DNA of 12,308 bases, taken from the NCBI GenBank assembly GCA_001803565.1, contig MHDQ01000296.1:1-12308 (forward strand). Reading direction: 5' to 3'. The position numbers were made by a program, and so were the translations under genes. Positions 269 to 12,286 of the stretch are shown here, piece after piece. The notes beneath the pieces are model-generated. The model made no database searches. It saw nothing but the letters and a program-made list of their open reading frames with translations, and was not told where the DNA came from. Position 1 is the first letter of the stretch. Each line of letters opens with the position of its first letter. This DNA is from Nitrospinae bacterium RIFCSPLOWO2_12_FULL_45_22 (GTDB lineage Bacteria; 2-12-FULL-45-22).

Positions 269-703
269 ATGGAGCTGGGTGAGCTCGCAAAAATGCTTAA
301 AGACTACTTTGGGAAAAGAGATGAGGTGGTACTGGCTTTCCTTTTTGGCTCGTGGGCGAAGGGCCAGCGAGGTATTGACTCAGATATTGATATCGCTATC
401 TATTTCCAACCCAAAGGCCATAGCCTGGAATGGGAAAAAACAGACTTTCAATATGATAGTGAAGACCATATCTGGTTAGACATCGAGAGGATTGTAGGAA
501 GGGAAGTGGACCTCCTGATCCTTAACCGGGCTGCGCCAACCATCGCCGACAGTGCCCTAAGAGGGATTCCCATTATCATTAAAAACCGTAATCTATATCT
601 GGATTTTCTTTTGAGAATTACCTCGGAAGCCATTGATTTTCGGCAATGGGTTGAGGCATATTGGCAGTATAAGGAACAGAGGAAGCATGGGACTCCTGCC
701 TGA
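269..703 (+). CDS. Minimal nucleotidyltransferase (MNT), MntA-like antitoxin candidate
   Basis: The 144-aa protein has the nucleotidyltransferase signature GSx10DxD: G27-S28, then D39 and D41 (DSDID). A likely third metal-binding carboxylate is D81 in REVDLLIL. The C-terminal helix (about 109-140) is rich in aromatic and charged residues, as in MntA-type proteins. In known type VII toxin-antitoxin pairs, MNT proteins add AMP to, and so silence, a HEPN ribonuclease encoded next door. All catalytic residues are present, so activity is plausible. The start is well supported by GAGGGAGG at 253-260, 8 bases upstream. No intact HEPN gene overlaps its 3' end; the next gene is a second MNT. It may therefore be an orphan, or act on a partner elsewhere. 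The fold call is firm and the biological role is inferred. Confidence 0.85.
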   Translation: MELGELAKMLKDYFGKRDEVVLAFLFGSWAKGQRGIDSDIDIAIYFQPKGHSLEWEKTDFQYDSEDHIWLDIERIVGREVDLLILNRAAPTIADSALRGIPIIIKNRNLYLDFLLRITSEAIDFRQWVEAYWQYKEQRKHGTPA

Positions 704-1545: not shown

Positions 1546-2556
1546 ATGCCAATAGACCAAGAAAATATAGACCGAGAAAATAATGAGAGAGCGCTTAGCA
1601 GGTTGATAGAACTTCTTAAAACTGGCCGAGCCCTGGCCTTTGTCGGTTCGGGTAGCTCTAAAAGGGTGGGTTATCCCGATTGGGATGAACTACTTTCGTT
1701 GATGGAGGGAGAAATTCGAACAAAAGATCCTACATTTAACGGGTCTTTCCACAGAGAAGCTGGAGATACCCTCTGGCATGCTTATAAATTAAAAGAAAGA
1801 CTCGGCGAAAACTTTTACCCCTTTATCAAAAAAACCTTTGAACCTAAGAATAATCGGCATAATGCTTTCCATATAAATTTGATGAGCCTTTCCTTCCAAC
1901 ATATCATTACATCAAACTATGACTCAGTATTAGAGGATGCTTTTTCTGGGTTGCGAAAATCCAAACCGGTTGAAAGATTCTGTTGGAATGAAAAAGAAAA
2001 ATTGTGCGACTTTATCCGGCGGATGAATGATCCATTGTATAAAGATACCATACAAATTTTTTACGTTCATGGTCGATATGATTCTCAGGATTCAATTGTT
2101 CTCACCGAAAGGGATTATACGAATCGTTACCATGAAGGCAATCTTGCTATAAAATGTCTATGGCTTATAGCGGCAACAAGGCAAGTAGTATTTGTCGGAT
2201 TTAGCTTTCAAGATTTTGATCTTCTTTCAGCATTCCGGCAGGTTCGAGGAGATTTTGGGGGAGGTGATTCACGGCACTTTGCACTAGTAGGGATTGAGCC
2301 AAACAAAGATCGTATAATTCGACGCAATTACCTTAACGATAAATTTGGTGTAGAACCGATATTTTATGACATTATTGAAGGAAAACATGACGAGCTAGAT
2401 AAATTGGTAATAAAAATACTCGGCGAATTTGGTCTTAAGACATCATTGATGGATGTAATTGAGCCCAAGCATGATTCAATTGATGAGGATGTAAGACGGC
2501 TTCAGGAGTATACTACAAAAGCATATGATCAAATAAAGAGTGGTAAATCAAAATGA
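1546..2556 (+). CDS. SIR2-domain protein, probable NAD+-consuming defence effector
   Basis: The 336-aa protein has the SIR2-like motifs in order: nucleotide-binding loop FVGSGSSKRVGYPDW (32-46), ITSNYD (121-126, with N124 and D126), FYVHGRYD with the expected catalytic His at H175, and FVGFSFQDFD (216-224). This set is typical of prokaryotic defence SIR2 domains (as in Thoeris ThsA and SIR2-STAND proteins), which degrade NAD+ to stop phage growth, rather than of protein deacetylases: no zinc-binding cysteine quartet is seen. Its stop overlaps the next start as ATGA (2553-2556), coupling it to the STAND NTPase. I chose ATG 1546; an in-frame TTG at 1540 would add two residues, and neither has a strong ribosome binding site. 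The domain call is firm. NADase activity and activation by the neighbour are inferred. Confidence 0.85.
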   Translation: MPIDQENIDRENNERALSRLIELLKTGRALAFVGSGSSKRVGYPDWDELLSLMEGEIRTKDPTFNGSFHREAGDTLWHAYKLKERLGENFYPFIKKTFEPKNNRHNAFHINLMSLSFQHIITSNYDSVLEDAFSGLRKSKPVERFCWNEKEKLCDFIRRMNDPLYKDTIQIFYVHGRYDSQDSIVLTERDYTNRYHEGNLAIKCLWLIAATRQVVFVGFSFQDFDLLSAFRQVRGDFGGGDSRHFALVGIEPNKDRIIRRNYLNDKFGVEPIFYDIIEGKHDELDKLVIKILGEFGLKTSLMDVIEPKHDSIDEDVRRLQEYTTKAYDQIKSGKSK

Positions 2557-5500
2557 TCCGGTTAGAACGTAAGAAACTTTTAAACGAACTAAATAGAATG
2601 TCCGATATTGGGCACCTTTTAGTCATTGGGGAACCAGGTATCGGAAAATCATGGATTTTAAATGAGCTTGTGGTCCAAAGATATGAGCAGAAAAAAATCA
2701 CATTGCTCCTTAAAGCCGATGAACTAGAGATTTCCTCAATGAATGATTTTAAAACTGCCCTGAATATCAATAATGAATTGGATACTGTGTTAAATAGCCT
2801 TAGCAAAGGTGAACATGGAGCTCTTATAGTTGATGCCTTGGATGCAGCCCGCAGCGAACCGAGGCAAAGAGCTTTCCGAGATCTGATCCATCAAGTTCAG
2901 ACTCAATGTCCTGATTGGTCGGTGGTTGCCAGTATACGGATTTATGATGCCAGACGTTCCCGGGAACTCCTTTCCCTTTTTCCCAGTGGCTCAATGGATA
3001 CTACTGAAGAATTTCGATGCCCGGACATTCGTTACCGTCACCTATGGGTTCCCCTCTTAACCGAGGAAGAGATTCGGGATGCCATCCGCCAGGAACCTCG
3101 CTTGCGGCCTTTTTATGACAAAGCTACTCCGCAATTACGACAAATATTACGGAACCCTTTTTACCTTTGGTTAGCAAATGAACTCATCGAGGAAGGGGTT
3201 AATGTTAATCAGATCTCTTCTATTCAGTCTGAGGTACAACTACTTGGTTTGTATTGGCATGAGCGGATAAATAAGAAGCCGGACGCAGAGGACAGAAGGA
3301 TGCTGTTGGTCAATGCAGCTAAGGCCATGGTGGATAGCCACTCCCTTTCTGTGTCTCGATCGGATGTGTATCAACAGCCAGGTTTAACCGGAGCGTTTAA
3401 TGCCTTGCTGAGTGAGCAAGTGCTAAAAGAAGTTACAGTATCAGGAGAAAGGCTGGCTTTTGCCCATAATATGCTTTTTGATTATGCGGTTTCGAGGCTC
3501 CTTATTCCAGAAGAGCCGAAAGAGTCCCTTCAATTTCTGATAGAGGAAATAAGCAGGCCCATTTTTTTAAGGCCAAGCATTACTTACTACTTTGCCCGCC
3601 TCTGGTATGATGAACGGGATCTCTTCTGGAAAACCTTCTGGCACTTTATGTTTGATGAAAAGGGGGAGATAGGGGAGCATATTAGAGTTCTCCCGGCCTT
3701 AACCATCCCAGCCGAAGTGAGCGATGCCGATGATCTCCAGCCTTTAATTGATAGATTAAAAGAAGACAAAGATTTGATCAAAGAGGGAGCGAAAGCGGTA
3801 CAGCGAGTCCTCCAATGTTTGCAATCATTAAAAGGTGCACCGGAGCCACAAAAGAATTTGTCTTGGGTAGAGTTTTTTTATCGCCTGCGGGAACACCTTT
3901 CTATTGGATTTATCAATGAATATGTCCGGTTACTAAATTCGATGGTAGATATTTGGGATCAATGGAAGCATCCTGAGCAGCATAAAATAGCAGTGACGTG
4001 CAGAAAAACCCTTGAATGGACCTGGGGTCCACCCAAGGGTTTAAATGAGGCTCAAATTAGAAACCTTACCCGGATGATAGGTGTCTGGGTAGTCCCTCTG
4101 GTATGTAAAACCTTTGGTGAAAATTCGGTGGAGTCACGGAAGTTATTGCAGAATATTCTTGAGCGGATCAGACAGCCTGCAACTCCTACCCAAGAGATTT
4201 ATCGGCTTACGCATGAAATTGCGCACCTCTGGCCCTATGATCCGGACTTTGTAGCAGATATTTATAAGGCTGTCTTCGAATATGAAGAAACTTCAGCGGA
4301 GAAAACCATATTGAGCTCCGGTGTTGTAGGCCTGACAAGCACCCGTCGGCAAGACTATCAGATGTGTTACTACATATTGGAGGAAGAATTTCCCAAATTT
4401 CTAAAGACGCACCCTATGCCGGCCACCCGGGCGATGGTCTGGGCAGTAAATGCCGCTACCAAGCGGGAACATGTATTCAGATATTCTTCTGCTGTTCCTA
4501 AAGATTTGGAACCCTCCCCGTTTCCTTTTAATGATAAAACCGCCCGTTATTTACCTGATCCTAGCTATGTATGGGATCAGGGTGATTTAATTGATCACTA
4601 TTACTATAAAAAAATGCTATCCCATTTAGACATCTTTTTAGAAGACCTGGCTAGGTCAAACAATGGTAAGGCGAAAGAATTGCTTACCAATATTCTGAAT
4701 GAAATCGTGAAAGAAAATGAGGTTGCGGTCATCTGGAGACATATCCTGAAACTCGCTATTAAGCATCCTTCCTTTTTTATCCAGGATATCTATCCTCTTC
4801 TCACTGCCGAACCTATACTGGTTTGGCCTGAGACTAATTATGAAGTGGGAGAATTATTAAAGGTTGGCTTTGAGTATCTCGAAGCAGAGCAGCGTCGGCA
4901 AATTGAGAAATCATTGCTCTTCCTACCAAATGCTACCCAGGCACCTATGAATCAGAAAGGCTTGGAAAGGCTTTATCTAACGTTAATTTCCTGTATCCCA
5001 GAAGGGTTATTGACATGTGAGGAATCACGTAGAATACTTAGTGCGCATAGGGAGAGCGGGGAAGGGATTCCAGAAAATCGGTCTCATAGTCCAATATTTG
5101 AATTCTCAAGTAAAAAATCTACGGAATCTGATTGGCTAATGGAGGAAGGGGCGGATCTCACTACCCCTGCAAATAAAAAGTTAATCGAGTTTTCCAACCC
5201 CGCCAGGGAGTTCGAAGACCAACATCTTAACAAAATACCTTCGATAGAAGCCTGTGAACAAGTCCTTCCGCAACTGGTGAAGCTAAATGACTATTTAGCC
5301 AGCAGTGCCAAAGATATGGATGAACCGGTTCGGGAATCGGCATTAAAACACCTGGCAGGGGCTTGTGAGACCATAGCCCGCACCCATGATCTCCCATATG
5401 ATCATGAAGCCTTGAAACTAGCCCAGAAAGTATTTTATCTTGCTGGACAGGATCGTTCACCGGAATTTAATCCAAAATACCACGCAACCTTTGACTCTCC

Positions 5501-6650
5501 CTCCTGGTCTCCAGCGCCCCGCATCGAAGCCGCCCAAGGAATCATGCACCTTGTCAGTCGAGAAGAGTTTGCAACTGAAGAGAACCTTAATTTAGTAGAA
5601 AAGCTCTCACAGGATCAGGTTCCGGCGGTTCGGTTTCACATTGTGATTAATATATTGAAACTTTATTATACGGCCCCGGAAAAGCTGTGGGAAATAGCTC
5701 TTCGCATAGCAGAGCGTGAGCCAACTAATGGCGTCCTAACCGGTCTTGCCGAAGCACTAAGGGATGCAGCCAGTGTACAACCTGAAAGGGTACTGGATGT
5801 ATTAGAAATAATATGTAAGAGACAACCTTCGGCAAAGAGAAAAGGTATTTCCTTGGTTGACCCCTGTCTCTCCGCGATTGCAGGTTTATTTATTGCCCAA
5901 GATAATAGCCGAGCAAATAAGATTCTGAAGCAATATGAATCTGATCCCATAAAAGGCGCCTCGGAATTGGTATATGCGGTTCTAACAGCCAGTAATTATC
6001 TATTGTGTGGAATTGCCAAGAGCTGGAAGGAAGATCCTGATAGTGTAAGGAAACGAGCCCGAGAAGTCATGTCCCGGGCGTTATCCAGTTCAGAAAAGGG
6101 ATTCTTAGAACTACAAGAAAAGTTTGGTGATAGCTGGCCAGAGGAACGACAAAAGGCAGCTAAAGAACTCTATGAAATCGTAGATCAGGTTGCCACCAGG
6201 CTCTATTTCACTGCTGATGTCAGGACTGATTCAAGTAAGCAAAATAAAATACCGTTGGATGATAGACAGCGGGCACAATATTATCACGAGATTCGTCCAT
6301 TGATAAAACAGGTCATCAAGATCGGGTTTTCTCCTGGGGGATTCCTCCCAGCGCGAACTGCGCATTATCTTATGCAGCTATTGAATGGGGTCTTGCCCTA
6401 TGGTCCTTCAGGGGTTATTGCTCTTGCCGATGAACTGTGCAAAGCCTCGGCTGCTTATGGATACACTCTGGATTCCCTTGCTATTCAAGAAGTAGTCAAG
6501 TTGGTAGAGACCTGCCTGGCGGACTATAAAGAAATTCTACAACATGAGCAAGATGTAGCCCATCTGGTAAGCCTATTGAATATATTTGTAGAGGCTGGCT
6601 GGCCAGAGGCTATACAACTTGTATTCCGGCTAGAAGAAATCTTTCGCTAA
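2553..6650 (+). CDS. STAND-type P-loop NTPase with long helical sensor region (NLR-like)
   Basis: The 1365-aa protein begins directly with an NTPase domain: Walker A GEPGIGKS (26-33), Walker B LIVDALD (91-97), a sensor-like strand VVASIR (124-129), and a helical module with the NP motif RNPFYLWLANEL (200-211). FAHNMLFDYA (303-312) resembles the conserved end of NACHT/STAND switch modules. From about 320 to the end it is predominantly helical, with stretches suggestive of HEAT/ARM-like repeats (for example near 930-950 and 1025-1080). No transmembrane segment, nuclease or TIR domain is apparent. STAND proteins are ATP-driven switches that oligomerise when the C-terminal region binds a ligand, in phage defence often a viral protein. 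Here the effector appears to be the separate SIR2 protein encoded upstream with an ATGA overlap. The NTPase call is firm; the sensor role is inferred. Confidence 0.8.
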   Translation: MIRLERKKLLNELNRMSDIGHLLVIGEPGIGKSWILNELVVQRYEQKKITLLLKADELEISSMNDFKTALNINNELDTVLNSLSKGEHGALIVDALDAARSEPRQRAFRDLIHQVQTQCPDWSVVASIRIYDARRSRELLSLFPSGSMDTTEEFRCPDIRYRHLWVPLLTEEEIRDAIRQEPRLRPFYDKATPQLRQILRNPFYLWLANELIEEGVNVNQISSIQSEVQLLGLYWHERINKKPDAEDRRMLLVNAAKAMVDSHSLSVSRSDVYQQPGLTGAFNALLSEQVLKEVTVSGERLAFAHNMLFDYAVSRLLIPEEPKESLQFLIEEISRPIFLRPSITYYFARLWYDERDLFWKTFWHFMFDEKGEIGEHIRVLPALTIPAEVSDADDLQPLIDRLKEDKDLIKEGAKAVQRVLQCLQSLKGAPEPQKNLSWVEFFYRLREHLSIGFINEYVRLLNSMVDIWDQWKHPEQHKIAVTCRKTLEWTWGPPKGLNEAQIRNLTRMIGVWVVPLVCKTFGENSVESRKLLQNILERIRQPATPTQEIYRLTHEIAHLWPYDPDFVADIYKAVFEYEETSAEKTILSSGVVGLTSTRRQDYQMCYYILEEEFPKFLKTHPMPATRAMVWAVNAATKREHVFRYSSAVPKDLEPSPFPFNDKTARYLPDPSYVWDQGDLIDHYYYKKMLSHLDIFLEDLARSNNGKAKELLTNILNEIVKENEVAVIWRHILKLAIKHPSFFIQDIYPLLTAEPILVWPETNYEVGELLKVGFEYLEAEQRRQIEKSLLFLPNATQAPMNQKGLERLYLTLISCIPEGLLTCEESRRILSAHRESGEGIPENRSHSPIFEFSSKKSTESDWLMEEGADLTTPANKKLIEFSNPAREFEDQHLNKIPSIEACEQVLPQLVKLNDYLASSAKDMDEPVRESALKHLAGACETIARTHDLPYDHEALKLAQKVFYLAGQDRSPEFNPKYHATFDSPSWSPAPRIEAAQGIMHLVSREEFATEENLNLVEKLSQDQVPAVRFHIVINILKLYYTAPEKLWEIALRIAEREPTNGVLTGLAEALRDAASVQPERVLDVLEIICKRQPSAKRKGISLVDPCLSAIAGLFIAQDNSRANKILKQYESDPIKGASELVYAVLTASNYLLCGIAKSWKEDPDSVRKRAREVMSRALSSSEKGFLELQEKFGDSWPEERQKAAKELYEIVDQVATRLYFTADVRTDSSKQNKIPLDDRQRAQYYHEIRPLIKQVIKIGFSPGGFLPARTAHYLMQLLNGVLPYGPSGVIALADELCKASAAYGYTLDSLAIQEVVKLVETCLADYKEILQHEQDVAHLVSLLNIFVEAGWPEAIQLVFRLEEIFR

Positions 6651-6723: not shown

Positions 6724-6981
6724 ATGATGATAGAAAAGGATGTAGTATTAGGTTTTATTGAAGGTCATAGGCGGGCTAATGAACTGGTCAGGGCAGAAAA
6801 GAAAAGGCGCCTCTCAGAATTGAGTATAGAAGATTCTCTTCGAGAATACGATACTCCCTGTAAAATGTGGGAAGCAAACCCTAATTCGGATAAAGAAGGA
6901 TTGGAATTACTGGCAAGACAAAAGATAGCTTTTCTCCTTGAGAGGAGAAGACGATTTAACAAAGTCAGTGGTCTTAAATAA
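6724..6981 (+). CDS. Small charged helical protein of unknown function
   Basis: The 85-aa protein is rich in Arg, Lys and Glu and looks mostly helical, with no transmembrane segment. The pattern ELVRAEKKRRLSELSIEDSL (20-39), then a YDTPCKMW segment, and a C-terminal KIAFLLERRRRFNK is reminiscent of small conserved proteins found beside nucleotidyltransferase and toxin-antitoxin genes, but I cannot name the family. The start is at ATG 6724, with a second ATG immediately after it. G-rich AGAGGGGG (6703-6710) or AAGAG (6714-6718) could serve as the ribosome binding site. It lies 73 bases after the STAND gene on the same strand, so it could be an accessory or regulatory member of that operon, or a separate antitoxin-like gene. 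No function is assigned. Confidence 0.6.
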   Translation: MMIEKDVVLGFIEGHRRANELVRAEKKRRLSELSIEDSLREYDTPCKMWEANPNSDKEGLELLARQKIAFLLERRRRFNKVSGLK

Positions 6982-7379: not shown

Positions 7380-10025
7380 ATGTCTGACCAAACCCCGATG
7401 ATGCGGCAATACTATGCAGCTAAGGAAAAGTTGAAGGATGCTATCCTCTTTTTCCGCATGGGGGATTTTTATGAGATGTTTTATGAAGACGCCCGGATTG
7501 CCTCCCGCATCCTGGAGATTGCCCTGACCTCCCGACAAAAGAATGCTGAAAACCCGATCCCGATGTGTGGTGTGCCCTATCATGCTGCGGATGGTTATAT
7601 AGCAAAATTAATAGAAGCGGGGCATAAAGTAGCTATCTGTGAGCAGGTAGAAGACCCCCGGGAGGCTAAAGGGCTGGTGAAGCGTGAGGTAGTAAGGATC
7701 ATCACCCCGGGGACTATCCTTGATACCGGCGTGCTCAAGGCCAAGGAAAACAATTATCTAGCCGCTATTTATCCGGGCAAGGAAAGACTGGGCCTGGCCC
7801 TGCTGGACCATACTACCGGGGAATTCTTTCTCACCGAGCTATCAGGCCCTAAAACCCTGGAGCGCTTCAAGGATGAATTCTACCGGTTCGCCCCCAAAGA
7901 GATATTGATCCCACCCGGCTTAGAAGACCAAGACCCCTTTTACGCTTTTTTGCGCCAGGAACCCACCTTCTTAGTAGAAGATCAAGAAGAATGGAGCTTT
8001 GACTATGACCTGGCCTACCAGACCTTGTTAGATCAATTCCAGACCAGTTCATTGGAGGGGTTTGGTTGCGAGGGGCTACCCGCCGCGATAAGGGCTGGTG
8101 GGGCCTTGATCCACTACTTACGAAAAACCCAGGGCGAGAGCCTGAAGCATATAAATAAGGTAACCTATTACAATACCAGTGATTATATGGTGATGGATCA
8201 GGCTACCCAGCGGAATCTGGAGCTGATCACCTCTTTAGACCCGCTCCATCCGGAAGGGTCATTATTGGCCGTGCTGGACCAGACAGTAACGGCTATGGGT
8301 GGCCGGAAGCTAAAAAATTGGCTCCTCCATCCCCTAAAAGACCTGGCTACCATAGAGAAACGCCTCTCGGCGGTAAATACCTTTTATCATGACCTTATCA
8401 CCCGGAAGCAATTAAGGGAGCTCCTCAGAGGGATACATGACCTGGAGCGGTTAGCCAGCAAGATCGCCTTAAACGCCACTAACCCCAGGGACCTCCTGGC
8501 CTTAAAAAACTCCCTCAGCCTCCTGCCACAACTAGAGCAGCTCCTCCAGCCTGCCTGTGCCAGCATGGCAGACAGGCCCGGTACTGACCCTATGATTAAT
8601 GAGCTGCTGAACGATTGGGATAATCTTTCTGAGGTGAAAGAGCTGATAGAGAAGGCTATTGAAGATGATGCGCCCCTTAATTGGCATGAGGGGGGGATAA
8701 TCAAGGCGGGCTTTAGCGCTGAGCTGGATCAGTTGCGGAGTATAAGCCAGCATGGTAAAGACTGGATCATAGGGCTGGAAGAACAGGAGCGACAACGAAC
8801 CAGGATCAACTCCCTTAAGGTGGGATACAATAAGGTATTTGGCTACTATATCGAGGTGACCAAGAGGTATCTAACGCAGGTGCCGGACTACTATATCCGA
8901 CGCCAAACCCTGGTCAATGCTGAGCGGTTTATTACGCCGGAGTTGAAGGAGTGGGAAGACAAGATACTGGGGGCAGAGGAGAAGCTCCTCCAGTTAGAAG
9001 AGAAGCTTTTTCAACAACTAAGGGAACAGATAGCCGGGAAGACCCAGCAAATCCAGGCTATGGCCCAGAAGATAGCGGTGCTGGACACTTTAGCCTCCCT
9101 GGCCCAGGTAGCCCATGACAAAAACTATACCCGGCCCGTGGTAGATCAGGGCGACACCATCCAGATAACTGAAGGCCGCCACCCCCTCCTTGAGGGCTTA
9201 ACCCTGGGAGAGAAATTTATCCCTAATGATACCTACTTGCATAATGCTGACCACCAGATCATACTTATTACCGGACCAAATATGGCGGGCAAATCTACCT
9301 ATTTGCGCCAGGTAGCGCTGATAGTATTATTAGCTCAGGTGGGTAGCTTTGTGCCAGCTAACGAGGCACGGATAGGCATAGTAGACCGGGTTTTTACCCG
9401 GATAGGCGCCCAGGACTTTCTGGCCCGGGGTCAGAGTACCTTTATGGTAGAGATGAATGAGACGGCCAATATCATCCATAATGCTACGGCAAAAAGCTTA
9501 ATCATCCTGGATGAGGTAGGCCGGGGGACCAGTACTTATGACGGGCTGAGCCTGGCCTGGTCTATTACCGAACATATCCACCAGGTAATCGGCGCTAAGA
9601 CCCTATTCGCTACCCATTACCACGAGCTTACTGCCCTGGCTCAGCTCTTCCCTCGAATAAAAAATTATAATGTAGCGGTCAGAGAATGGAGCGATAAGGT
9701 TATCTTTTTACGTAAGATTGTAGAAGGGGCTACTGACCGGAGTTATGGCATCCAGGTAGCCCGTTTAGCCGGTATCCCTGCCGGGGTACTGGGCCGGGCT
9801 AAAGAGGTGTTACATCAGATGGAGAACAATAACCGTAAATCCTGCCGGAAGAATTTGATAAAGCATACCCCAGGCCAACCCTGGCAATTGCATCTCTTTG
9901 ATGACCAGCCAGACCTGATCAGGAAAAAACTCCAGGAGATCAATATAGACTCGCTGACACCACTAGAGGCCTTGAATAAGCTGGAGGAATTAAAAAATAT
10001 TTTAGAGGAAGGTAGAGATAAGTAA
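7380..10025 (+). CDS. mutS: DNA mismatch repair ATPase MutS
   Basis: The 881-aa protein is a full-length MutS. The N-terminal mismatch-binding domain has GDFYEMF with the Phe-x-Glu pair F30/E32 that stacks on and contacts the mispaired base. The connector, core and clamp domains follow (RRQTLVNAERFITPELKEWE in the clamp/core). The ATPase has Walker A GPNMAGKST (632-640), Walker B ILDE with D711-E712, and the FATHYHEL segment (743-750) with the conserved His746. It recognises base mismatches after replication and recruits MutL; no mutL is in the window. An in-frame palindrome at 8549-8577 encodes PACASMADRPG (391-401). By hand alignment from memory, this region is about nine residues longer than in E. 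coli MutS. Otherwise no key residue is missing. The stop overlaps the next start (TAATG). Confidence 0.97.
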   Translation: MSDQTPMMRQYYAAKEKLKDAILFFRMGDFYEMFYEDARIASRILEIALTSRQKNAENPIPMCGVPYHAADGYIAKLIEAGHKVAICEQVEDPREAKGLVKREVVRIITPGTILDTGVLKAKENNYLAAIYPGKERLGLALLDHTTGEFFLTELSGPKTLERFKDEFYRFAPKEILIPPGLEDQDPFYAFLRQEPTFLVEDQEEWSFDYDLAYQTLLDQFQTSSLEGFGCEGLPAAIRAGGALIHYLRKTQGESLKHINKVTYYNTSDYMVMDQATQRNLELITSLDPLHPEGSLLAVLDQTVTAMGGRKLKNWLLHPLKDLATIEKRLSAVNTFYHDLITRKQLRELLRGIHDLERLASKIALNATNPRDLLALKNSLSLLPQLEQLLQPACASMADRPGTDPMINELLNDWDNLSEVKELIEKAIEDDAPLNWHEGGIIKAGFSAELDQLRSISQHGKDWIIGLEEQERQRTRINSLKVGYNKVFGYYIEVTKRYLTQVPDYYIRRQTLVNAERFITPELKEWEDKILGAEEKLLQLEEKLFQQLREQIAGKTQQIQAMAQKIAVLDTLASLAQVAHDKNYTRPVVDQGDTIQITEGRHPLLEGLTLGEKFIPNDTYLHNADHQIILITGPNMAGKSTYLRQVALIVLLAQVGSFVPANEARIGIVDRVFTRIGAQDFLARGQSTFMVEMNETANIIHNATAKSLIILDEVGRGTSTYDGLSLAWSITEHIHQVIGAKTLFATHYHELTALAQLFPRIKNYNVAVREWSDKVIFLRKIVEGATDRSYGIQVARLAGIPAGVLGRAKEVLHQMENNNRKSCRKNLIKHTPGQPWQLHLFDDQPDLIRKKLQEINIDSLTPLEALNKLEELKNILEEGRDK
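8549..8577. repeat. Palindrome embedded in frame in mutS
   Basis: CCTGT (8554-8558) pairs with ACAGG (8572-8576) and GCC (8559-8561) with GGC (8567-8569), with a 2-base bulge and a 5-base loop. An alternative outer pairing is GCCTG (8549-8553) with CAGGC (8573-8577). The 12 bases 8550-8561 equal the reverse complement of 216-227, part of the intergenic palindrome near the left end. The reading frame stays open and the encoded residues fall in a variable stretch of the MutS core domain. Confidence 0.5.
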
Positions 10026-12286
10026 TGGTAGATATGGCTAGAATCAGGAGAAGAAGAATCCGAAGGGCTATTGTGGGTTTAGTCCTCCTGGTGATTATCC
10101 TTACTATAATTCAAACTTATATAAAAGGCGTCAGGAGCCCTTCTCCTATAGCCAGCAATATCCTGGTCTTCTCCCTCTTCAACATAAATATTATTCTCCT
10201 TATGCTCCTGATATTTTTTGTTTTCCGCAATATCGTAAAGCTCTATTTTGAGCGTAAATCCCAGACTATAGGGGCCCAGTTTAAGACTAAATTGGTAGCA
10301 GCCTTTGTAGGCTTTTCCTTGATCCCAGCTATCCTGCTCTTTGTGGTGGCCAGCGGTCTCATCACTAACAGCATAGATAATTGGTTCAATGAGCAGGTAG
10401 AGAAGTCCCTGGAAAATGCCCAGGAAGTGGTAGATTTCTATTATAATAACCTCTCTGAAGATGCCCAGCTCGCCGCTAAGCGGTTCGCTCAGTACCTCAC
10501 TAACCAGGGATTGGTAGGCTATTCCCCTAATAGAGGCTTAATAAAAGCGAAAAATATGGCCTCAGTGCAAAAGGCCCTCGATAAGTTCAGGACCGATTAT
10601 TCCCTGGATGCCCTGCAGATCTTCGATAAAGACCAGGAAATGCTGGCCTATAGTATCCACCCTACTCTTCAGGTACACAAAGATAAACTCCTCATTAGGG
10701 ACACCTATCGTTATGTGAGACGGAGTCTGGCAGGAGATACTAATACCAGGGTTAAGACTATCAAGGAAGGGGTAACGGTCCGGGGATTTGCCCCTATTCG
10801 GCAAGATACGATCCCCACGCCGGTAGGAGCCGTAGCAGTTACCCATTACATCCCCAAGGATATCGCTGCCAAGGTCTCAGAGATCACCAAGACCTTTGAT
10901 GAATATAGGGGGTTAAAGTTCTTGAAAGGCCCTATTAAGTCCAGCTACATTATTACCTTTTTCCTTATTACCCTCCTGATTATCTTTTCTGCCACCTGGT
11001 TCGGTTTTTATCTGGCTAAAGGGATCACGGTACCTATCCAGAAACTGGCCGAGGCCACACGCTATATAGCCCGGGGAGATCTGGAGTTCAATATAGACGT
11101 TGAAGCCAAGGACGAGATAGGTATCCTGGTGAACTCTTTTAACCAGATGACCAAAGAGCTGAAGGATAGCCAGGTACAGATTGCCCAGGCCAACGAAGGG
11201 TTGAGGCAAAAAAATATCGAGCTGGATCAGCGGAGGAACTATATTGAAACAGTCCTGAAGAATGTAGCAGCCGGTGTGATCTCGCTAGATAAAGAAGGAA
11301 GAATAACTACTATTAATAAATCGGCTGAGAGACTACTGGAGCTAGATGCTGATACCCACCGGGGTAGACCTTACCAGGAAGTCCTTGGGGCAGAACAATA
11401 TTACCCCATATTGAGCCTCATCAATAAGGCCATCATAGATGACTATGAGAATCTGGAAGAACAAGTTAAGCTAGTGATCGGCCAAAAACCCCTCACCTTA
11501 ATCATCCATGCCTCGACGATGAAAGATGATAGTTATAATCCCTTAGGCATGGTATTGGTGCTCGAGGACCTGACAGAATTGATAAAGGCCCAGAGGGTCG
11601 CGGCCTGGCGAGAAATAGCCAAAGGCATTGCCCATGAAATCAAAAACCCCCTCACCCCTATCCAGCTATCCGCCCAGCGACTTAAGAAGAAATATGTGAC
11701 TCAGGCCCCTGACCTGGATGAGACCTTTGATGAGTGTGTAGATACCATTATTAATCAGGTAGATGACATAAGGGGGTTGGTGGATGAATTCTCTCGCTTT
11801 GCCCGGATGCCTGAGTCCCAGCCTAAACCGGAGGACCTCCATAAGGTCACAGATGAGGTTATTGCCCTCTACCGGGTATCACATAAAGATATTGAAATAA
11901 TACCCACCTACGACCCTCAGATAAATACCTTAGAGCTTGATCGTGACCAGATCAAACGATTATTAATTAACCTGATAGAAAACGCTATCAAGGCCATGAA
12001 TGGCCAAGGCAAGATATATATTACTACCTGCCTTATGAAGAAAGCGGGCTTTGTCCAAATAGAGGTAGCCGATGAAGGGAGTGGCATACTCCCGGAAGAT
12101 AGAGATAAGCTCTTCCTCCCTTATTTTTCTACTAAAAAAGGGGGTACCGGCCTGGGTTTAGCCATTGTAAATCGCATAGTAGAAGACCATCATGGCTACA
12201 TAACCGTGAGGGATTATTATCCCAAGGGGACGGTCTTCTCTGTCCACCTCCCCCTTCACCCAACCTTATCCCAGGAGAGTCATTGA
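10025..12286 (+). CDS. NtrY-like membrane sensor histidine kinase
   Basis: The 753-aa protein has membrane segments at about 15-33, 46-67, 90-111 and 308-330, leaving an extracytoplasmic sensing region at about 112-307. A HAMP linker follows (about 325-380, VPIQKLAEATRYIARGDLEF), then a PAS domain (about 405-520), the phosphorylated His H537 in GIAHEIKNPLTPIQLSAQRL, the N-box with N653, and the ATP-binding motifs DEGSG (683-687) and GGTGLGL (706-712). Four membrane segments plus HAMP-PAS and the HEIKNPLTPIQLSAQRL box are typical of NtrY-family kinases, which usually act with an NtrX sigma-54-dependent response regulator. That partner would lie beyond the right edge; only 22 bases remain after the stop. 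The start overlaps the mutS stop, with GAGGAAGG at 10005-10012. An in-frame ATG at 10034 is a less likely start. The signal sensed is unknown. Confidence 0.9.
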   Translation: MVDMARIRRRRIRRAIVGLVLLVIILTIIQTYIKGVRSPSPIASNILVFSLFNINIILLMLLIFFVFRNIVKLYFERKSQTIGAQFKTKLVAAFVGFSLIPAILLFVVASGLITNSIDNWFNEQVEKSLENAQEVVDFYYNNLSEDAQLAAKRFAQYLTNQGLVGYSPNRGLIKAKNMASVQKALDKFRTDYSLDALQIFDKDQEMLAYSIHPTLQVHKDKLLIRDTYRYVRRSLAGDTNTRVKTIKEGVTVRGFAPIRQDTIPTPVGAVAVTHYIPKDIAAKVSEITKTFDEYRGLKFLKGPIKSSYIITFFLITLLIIFSATWFGFYLAKGITVPIQKLAEATRYIARGDLEFNIDVEAKDEIGILVNSFNQMTKELKDSQVQIAQANEGLRQKNIELDQRRNYIETVLKNVAAGVISLDKEGRITTINKSAERLLELDADTHRGRPYQEVLGAEQYYPILSLINKAIIDDYENLEEQVKLVIGQKPLTLIIHASTMKDDSYNPLGMVLVLEDLTELIKAQRVAAWREIAKGIAHEIKNPLTPIQLSAQRLKKKYVTQAPDLDETFDECVDTIINQVDDIRGLVDEFSRFARMPESQPKPEDLHKVTDEVIALYRVSHKDIEIIPTYDPQINTLELDRDQIKRLLINLIENAIKAMNGQGKIYITTCLMKKAGFVQIEVADEGSGILPEDRDKLFLPYFSTKKGGTGLGLAIVNRIVEDHHGYITVRDYYPKGTVFSVHLPLHPTLSQESH

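Follow-up and report, generated by a model that had tools for sequence, protein, structure and literature searches.

The SIR2 and STAND genes

The window, that is, the whole stretch of 12,308 nucleotides analyzed here, corresponds to contig C296 in a draft genome of 3.67 Mb that is 85% complete, and its genes all run in one direction (+ strand), in the order MNTs, HEPN, SIR2, STAND, two small ORFs, mutS and histidine kinase. The SIR2-family gene (1546..2556) encodes an NADase-like protein of 336 amino acids that matches Pfam SIR2_2 (E 5e-23) and is the proposed in-trans effector; the mechanically called frame opens with TTG at 1540, and the ATG at 1546 gives the 336 residues. All the SIR2 motifs listed in the original prediction are present in the sequence, namely, GSGSS (residues 34-38; 1645..1659), with G34 and G36 invariant among 22 paired SIR2s, TSNYD (122-126; 1909..1923), with T122 and N124 invariant in the same set, HG (175-176; 2068..2073), with H175 invariant and G176 conserved in at least 90% (the paired SIR2 of locus L028 has HE where the others have HG), and GFSFQD (218-223; 2197..2214), with G218, F219 and D223 invariant. 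The PADLOC matches of the protein include ThsA (E 3e-21), LmuA (3e-17) and Dsr1 (1e-13), and the folds closest to its AF2 model (pLDDT 85) are those of ThsA, KomC and DSR2. In this model, a disordered linker (residues 302-311) connects the SIR2 fold to a C-terminal helix (312-332; 2479..2541), a candidate STAND-docking element.

The next gene (2553..6650) encodes a STAND NTPase of 1365 amino acids that belongs to the PDC-M54A family but is devoid of the fused N-terminal effector. The ATGA overlap of the two genes (2553..2556) is as originally described: the SIR2 frame ends at 2556 and the STAND ATG lies at 2553. The short leader ahead of the P-loop, previously given as about 25 residues, is likewise borne out, with the P-loop beginning at residue 26 and the ORF bounded by the SIR2 overlap. 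Among 31 homologues, the invariant positions are P28, G29, G31 and K32 of the Walker A motif GEPGIGKS (residues 26-33; 2628..2651), D94 and D97 of the Walker B-like ALIVDALD (90-97; 2820..2843), and the sensor-type arginine R129 of ASIR (2937..2939); F303, H305, L308, F309 and D310 are also invariant in FAHNMLFDYA of the winged-helix region (303-312; 3459..3488).

The AF2 model of residues 1-1190 (pLDDT 87, pTM 0.63) consists of the NTPase and winged-helix module followed, from about residue 332, by an all-helical solenoid, which is placed at about residues 332-1365 (3546..6647) from the model and the end-to-end Avs4 alignment and which is the proposed ligand sensor. The long helical C-terminal region that had been surmised in this Walker A/B protein is thus seen in the model up to residue 1190. 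The nearest folds are those of NLRC4 and NLRP3 (Z 22-25; Z 25.3 over 339 residues for NLRC4) and of Avs4. Taken together, the motifs and the model comprise the P-loop NTPase, winged helix and C-terminal repeat sensor that characterize STAND/NLR-like proteins, and the STAND profile also matches PDB entry 9n00 ('AAA family ATPase', 1523 aa) along its length.

Conservation of the pair and effector exchange

When 84,980 species genomes were scanned, 152 relatives of the STAND protein were obtained, of which the best 80 were kept for study. Among these best 80 of 152, a SIR2 gene lies directly upstream of all 23 STANDs that start at the P-loop (21 loci including the window, together with L035 and L057, in which the SIR2 frames are broken), compared with 2 of the 62 STANDs that carry a fused N-terminal domain (Fisher p 9e-19, uncorrected for shared ancestry). 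No SIR2 was found near the 57 STANDs with other fused domains or near three SMEK fusions. The split design proposed from the single locus is therefore upheld: STANDs without an N-terminal domain have an upstream SIR2 (23/23), and those with one lack it (60/62). STAND homologues without an adjacent SIR2 gene, which the original prediction took as speaking against it, are indeed common in the wider family, yet they carry a fused domain of their own. The 23 SIR2-paired cases are not independent because all pairs fall in one clade, and many of them come from Poribacteria.

In 21 other loci from unrelated phyla, the SIR2 and STAND genes overlap by 4-41 nt, mostly by 11 or 17 (lengths counted from mechanical start codons), so that the overlapping arrangement is far beyond chance. 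The overlap suggests translational coupling only, as opposed to the earlier claim that the two proteins are made in equal amounts. In a tree of 84 STANDs, a 100%-supported branch separates two clades, one containing the SIR2-type and SMEK-type proteins and the other the 57 remaining fused ones. The former clade includes members from Acidobacteriota, Bacteroidota, Methanobacteriota, Armatimonadota, Krumholzibacteriota, Poribacteria, Latescibacterota and the window's own phylum (which is represented by just one further genome in the genome set used), and the SIR2 pairs span at least eight phyla. The window STAND is among the deepest members of this clade, next to a pair from Terriglobia. The SIR2 and STAND distances are strongly correlated (r 0.886 for 22 pairs; none of 2000 permutations reached this value), and N124 and H175 of SIR2 as well as K32, D94, R129 and H305 of STAND are invariant among the homologues compared. 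In the SIR2 tree, the paired SIR2s do not firmly form one clade, the window protein and that of locus L030 being placed near unpaired plasmid SIR2s.

Residues 10-1365 of the window STAND align with positions 308-1657 of the 1657-position PADLOC model PDC-M54A (E 4e-236), such that the protein is a full-length homologue lacking only the N-terminal part of about 307 residues. A match of the pair to a named defense system, the other outcome that the original prediction regarded as adverse, was thus found for the STAND protein, whereas the pair itself is unnamed because PDC-M54A has the extra N-terminal domain, PDC-M54B is absent and SIR2 lies outside the model. The window SIR2 had no match to the PDC-M54A model in PADLOC, no ORF in the window had a phmmer match to PDC-M54B, and PADLOC gave no M54B match for the downstream ORF (6724-6981); the window has a SIR2 gene rather than the PDC-M54B gene of a PDC-M54 system. 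PDC-M54B is found downstream of 28 relatives and with none of the SIR2 pairs. The family appears to be rare, given that PDC-M54A had no match in a spread of 289 other genomes, and PDC-M54 is unnamed in the literature searched. It now gains a second lineage, one that would escape a search requiring both the A and the B gene.

Most of the relatives, from both plasmids and genomes, consist of one polypeptide of about 1620 aa whose N-terminal domain, about 300 aa long, contains the motif ET.PVDD..QxK in about 53 of 57 cases. Judging by this motif, the domain could be a PD-(D/E)XK nuclease; apart from two hydrolases, the fused N-terminal domains had no meaningful sequence match in Pfam or PDB. The two exceptions are Paenibacillus proteins (L049 5873-10849; L052 5870-10852) with an N-terminal alpha/beta-hydrolase (DUF676/PGAP1-like, CHSLGG) in place of the nuclease-like domain. 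Searches of viral contigs by alignment, single-protein and DNA pattern scans recovered just two relatives, both of the fused type, and no relatives were found in phage records.

A SMEK domain (Pfam E about 1e-45) is fused to five Poribacteria STANDs that are nested among the SIR2 pairs. Three of these have no SIR2 gene, and no SIR2 remnants were found beside them, whereas in the other two the SIR2 gene precedes the SMEK-STAND fusion (L033 3067-8857; L044 4808-10786). These two loci present two possible effectors for one switch. Because the SMEK proteins are nested among the SIR2 pairs, with SIR2 replaced or joined, effector types interchange on one chassis; among the indirect lines of evidence that the STAND uses its separate SIR2 as an effector, this substitution is the strongest. 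The SIR2s of L033 and L044 have lost the C-terminal tail, which suggests that the tail may dock on STAND since it is missing where SMEK occupies the STAND N-terminus. A more elaborate scenario, in which one switch family exchanged fused effectors (nuclease-like, SMEK, alpha/beta-hydrolase) for an in-trans SIR2 via dual-effector loci such as L033 and L044, with one STAND driving both SIR2 and SMEK and the SIR2 C-terminal helix serving as a docking tag, is conceivable but somewhat doubtful as a whole.

Proposed mechanism and comparison with known systems

We consider it probable (roughly 0.7) that the pair is a two-gene NLR-like antiphage system in which the STAND switch activates a separate SIR2 NADase in trans, SIR2 being most likely the killing arm of this switch. 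The solenoid would bind a ligand from the invader, upon which the NTPase would exchange its nucleotide and the STAND protein would assemble. SIR2 is envisaged to dock on the NTPase at its N-terminal face, which is bare here but in the relatives bears the fused nuclease-like, SMEK or hydrolase domain, such that assembly would gather SIR2 subunits and turn on NAD+ hydrolysis, aborting the infection. This would be the Avs5 logic with the effector moved to a separate chain, and we infer all of its steps, that is, physical contact between the two proteins, ligand triggering, NAD+ depletion and protection against phage by the pair.

The overlapping genes also fit a stoichiometric pair of a different kind, in which STAND, in the manner of an antitoxin, would hold a constitutively toxic SIR2 inactive until an invader disrupts STAND and frees SIR2. 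An unregulated SIR2 would be toxic, and MNT/HEPN genes of the toxin-antitoxin type adjoin the pair in the window; nevertheless, we regard such restraint as unlikely, given that the relatives bear fused effectors on the same STAND face, as in the switch-activated Avs proteins, and that an ATPase of 1365 aa would be atypical for an antitoxin. Less plausible is the possibility that SIR2 modifies proteins instead of depleting NAD+: ADP-ribosylation and deacylation activities do exist among sirtuin-fold enzymes, but the window SIR2 sequence has no zinc-binding CxxC pairs (its sole cysteines are at positions 146, 154 and 204), and both its profile and its fold match NADases, namely, ThsA, DSR2 and KomC. 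Chance adjacency of two separate single-gene defenses is, in our estimate, marginally less credible still. SIR2 proteins commonly work alone or with other partners, and the closest plasmid SIR2s adjoin other genes; against this, SIR2 is present at 23/23 bare STANDs, in constant order and overlapping, the two proteins diverge in a correlated manner, and the flanking contexts are many.

In-trans activation of SIR2 by the STAND switch, the reading we favor, differs from the organization of most studied bacterial NLR-like proteins, which combine sensor, switch and effector within a single chain. A STAND receptor that adjoins a separate effector gene, as in the SIR2/STAND pair, is found in the fungal NWD2/HET-S pair, where the trigger of HET-S is amyloid templating. 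Avs5, which combines SIR2 and STAND in one chain, responds to a phage protein by hydrolyzing NAD+ and requires the Walker motifs as well as SIR2 residues (PMC12931631). The window pair resembles it in having a SIR2 effector and a STAND switch, with the SIR2 profile matching EfAvs5 (9jap; E 3e-6), the STAND model aligning to EfAvs5 (Z 12.9), whose PDB structure is helical, and GSGSS, TSNYD and HG corresponding to the Avs5 motifs GAGxS, TTNxD, and HG or NG. However, Avs5 is one polypeptide whereas the window proteins come from separate frames overlapping by ATGA, and the window STAND, whose solenoid comprises about 1000 residues, belongs to a different family; Avs5 models of PADLOC and NCBIfam matched neither window protein at E up to 1. 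The best end-to-end structural match is Avs4 (8dgf; Foldseek E 6e-16, 979 residues aligned), and a PADLOC Avs4 model matches the window STAND NTPase (E 1e-6), but the Avs4 nuclease is in the same chain.

Thoeris ThsA, DSR2 and KomC share the catalytic domain and fold of the window SIR2 but are triggered by other partners or ligands. The window SIR2 extends beyond its SIR2 fold by just one helix, with neither a SLOG domain nor a tail-tube sensor, and no TIR match, as expected of the Thoeris partner ThsB, was obtained among the window genes scanned with Pfam. Like SIR2, SMEK is listed for the partner proteins of short Argonautes, as a nuclease domain, and in the SIR2-APAZ and SMEK-APAZ systems the two are alternative effectors, usually encoded by a separate gene (PMC10810196); there, however, the switch is an Argonaute, not a STAND NTPase. 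The window system is built from parts of familiar kinds, and its STAND family already figures as a candidate in PADLOC, whereas the SIR2-in-trans lineage appears to be the new element. This lineage and the effector swaps are absent from the model libraries and the literature searched, of which the coverage is partial, so that an earlier description is possible. The conserved split version together with its fused-effector relatives offers a direct route to how an activated STAND signals to its effector, and the two separable halves could be purified apart and then mixed to study this signal transfer.

Neighboring genes

The first gene of the window (269-703) encodes a lone MntA-type MNT nucleotidyltransferase scoring above the NCBIfam cut-off; no HEPN partner is visible, the contig starting 268 bases upstream. 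It is followed by a second MNT nucleotidyltransferase (756-1088; PADLOC PDC-S09) that overlaps by ATGA a HEPN gene (1085-1432), and these two form a pair of the toxin-antitoxin type that immediately precedes the SIR2 gene. Downstream of the STAND gene are mutS (7380-10025) and a membrane histidine kinase (10025-12286), both named from sequence. A third conserved gene was sought at the pair loci, and the window MNT/HEPN genes recur in fewer than three of them. The pair neighbors in other genomes include restriction-modification enzymes and AbiH, and a restriction-modification gene is recurrent solely in Poribacteria and Latescibacterota, where a type IIG/ISP-like enzyme of about 1025 aa is encoded upstream of SIR2 or SMEK-STAND in 14 loci (for example, L019 2150-5227 and L055 1113-4304, and 12 more). 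In L055, this gene ends 8 nt before the SIR2 or SMEK-STAND gene, and the arrangement suggests a three-gene module in these two phyla. The poribacterial methyltransferase gene is a full-length match to a type IIG enzyme model. No second STAND copy was found in the window's 85% complete draft genome, which does encode a second SIR2_2 protein (L099; contig C198 4067-4657, open frame of about 473 aa).
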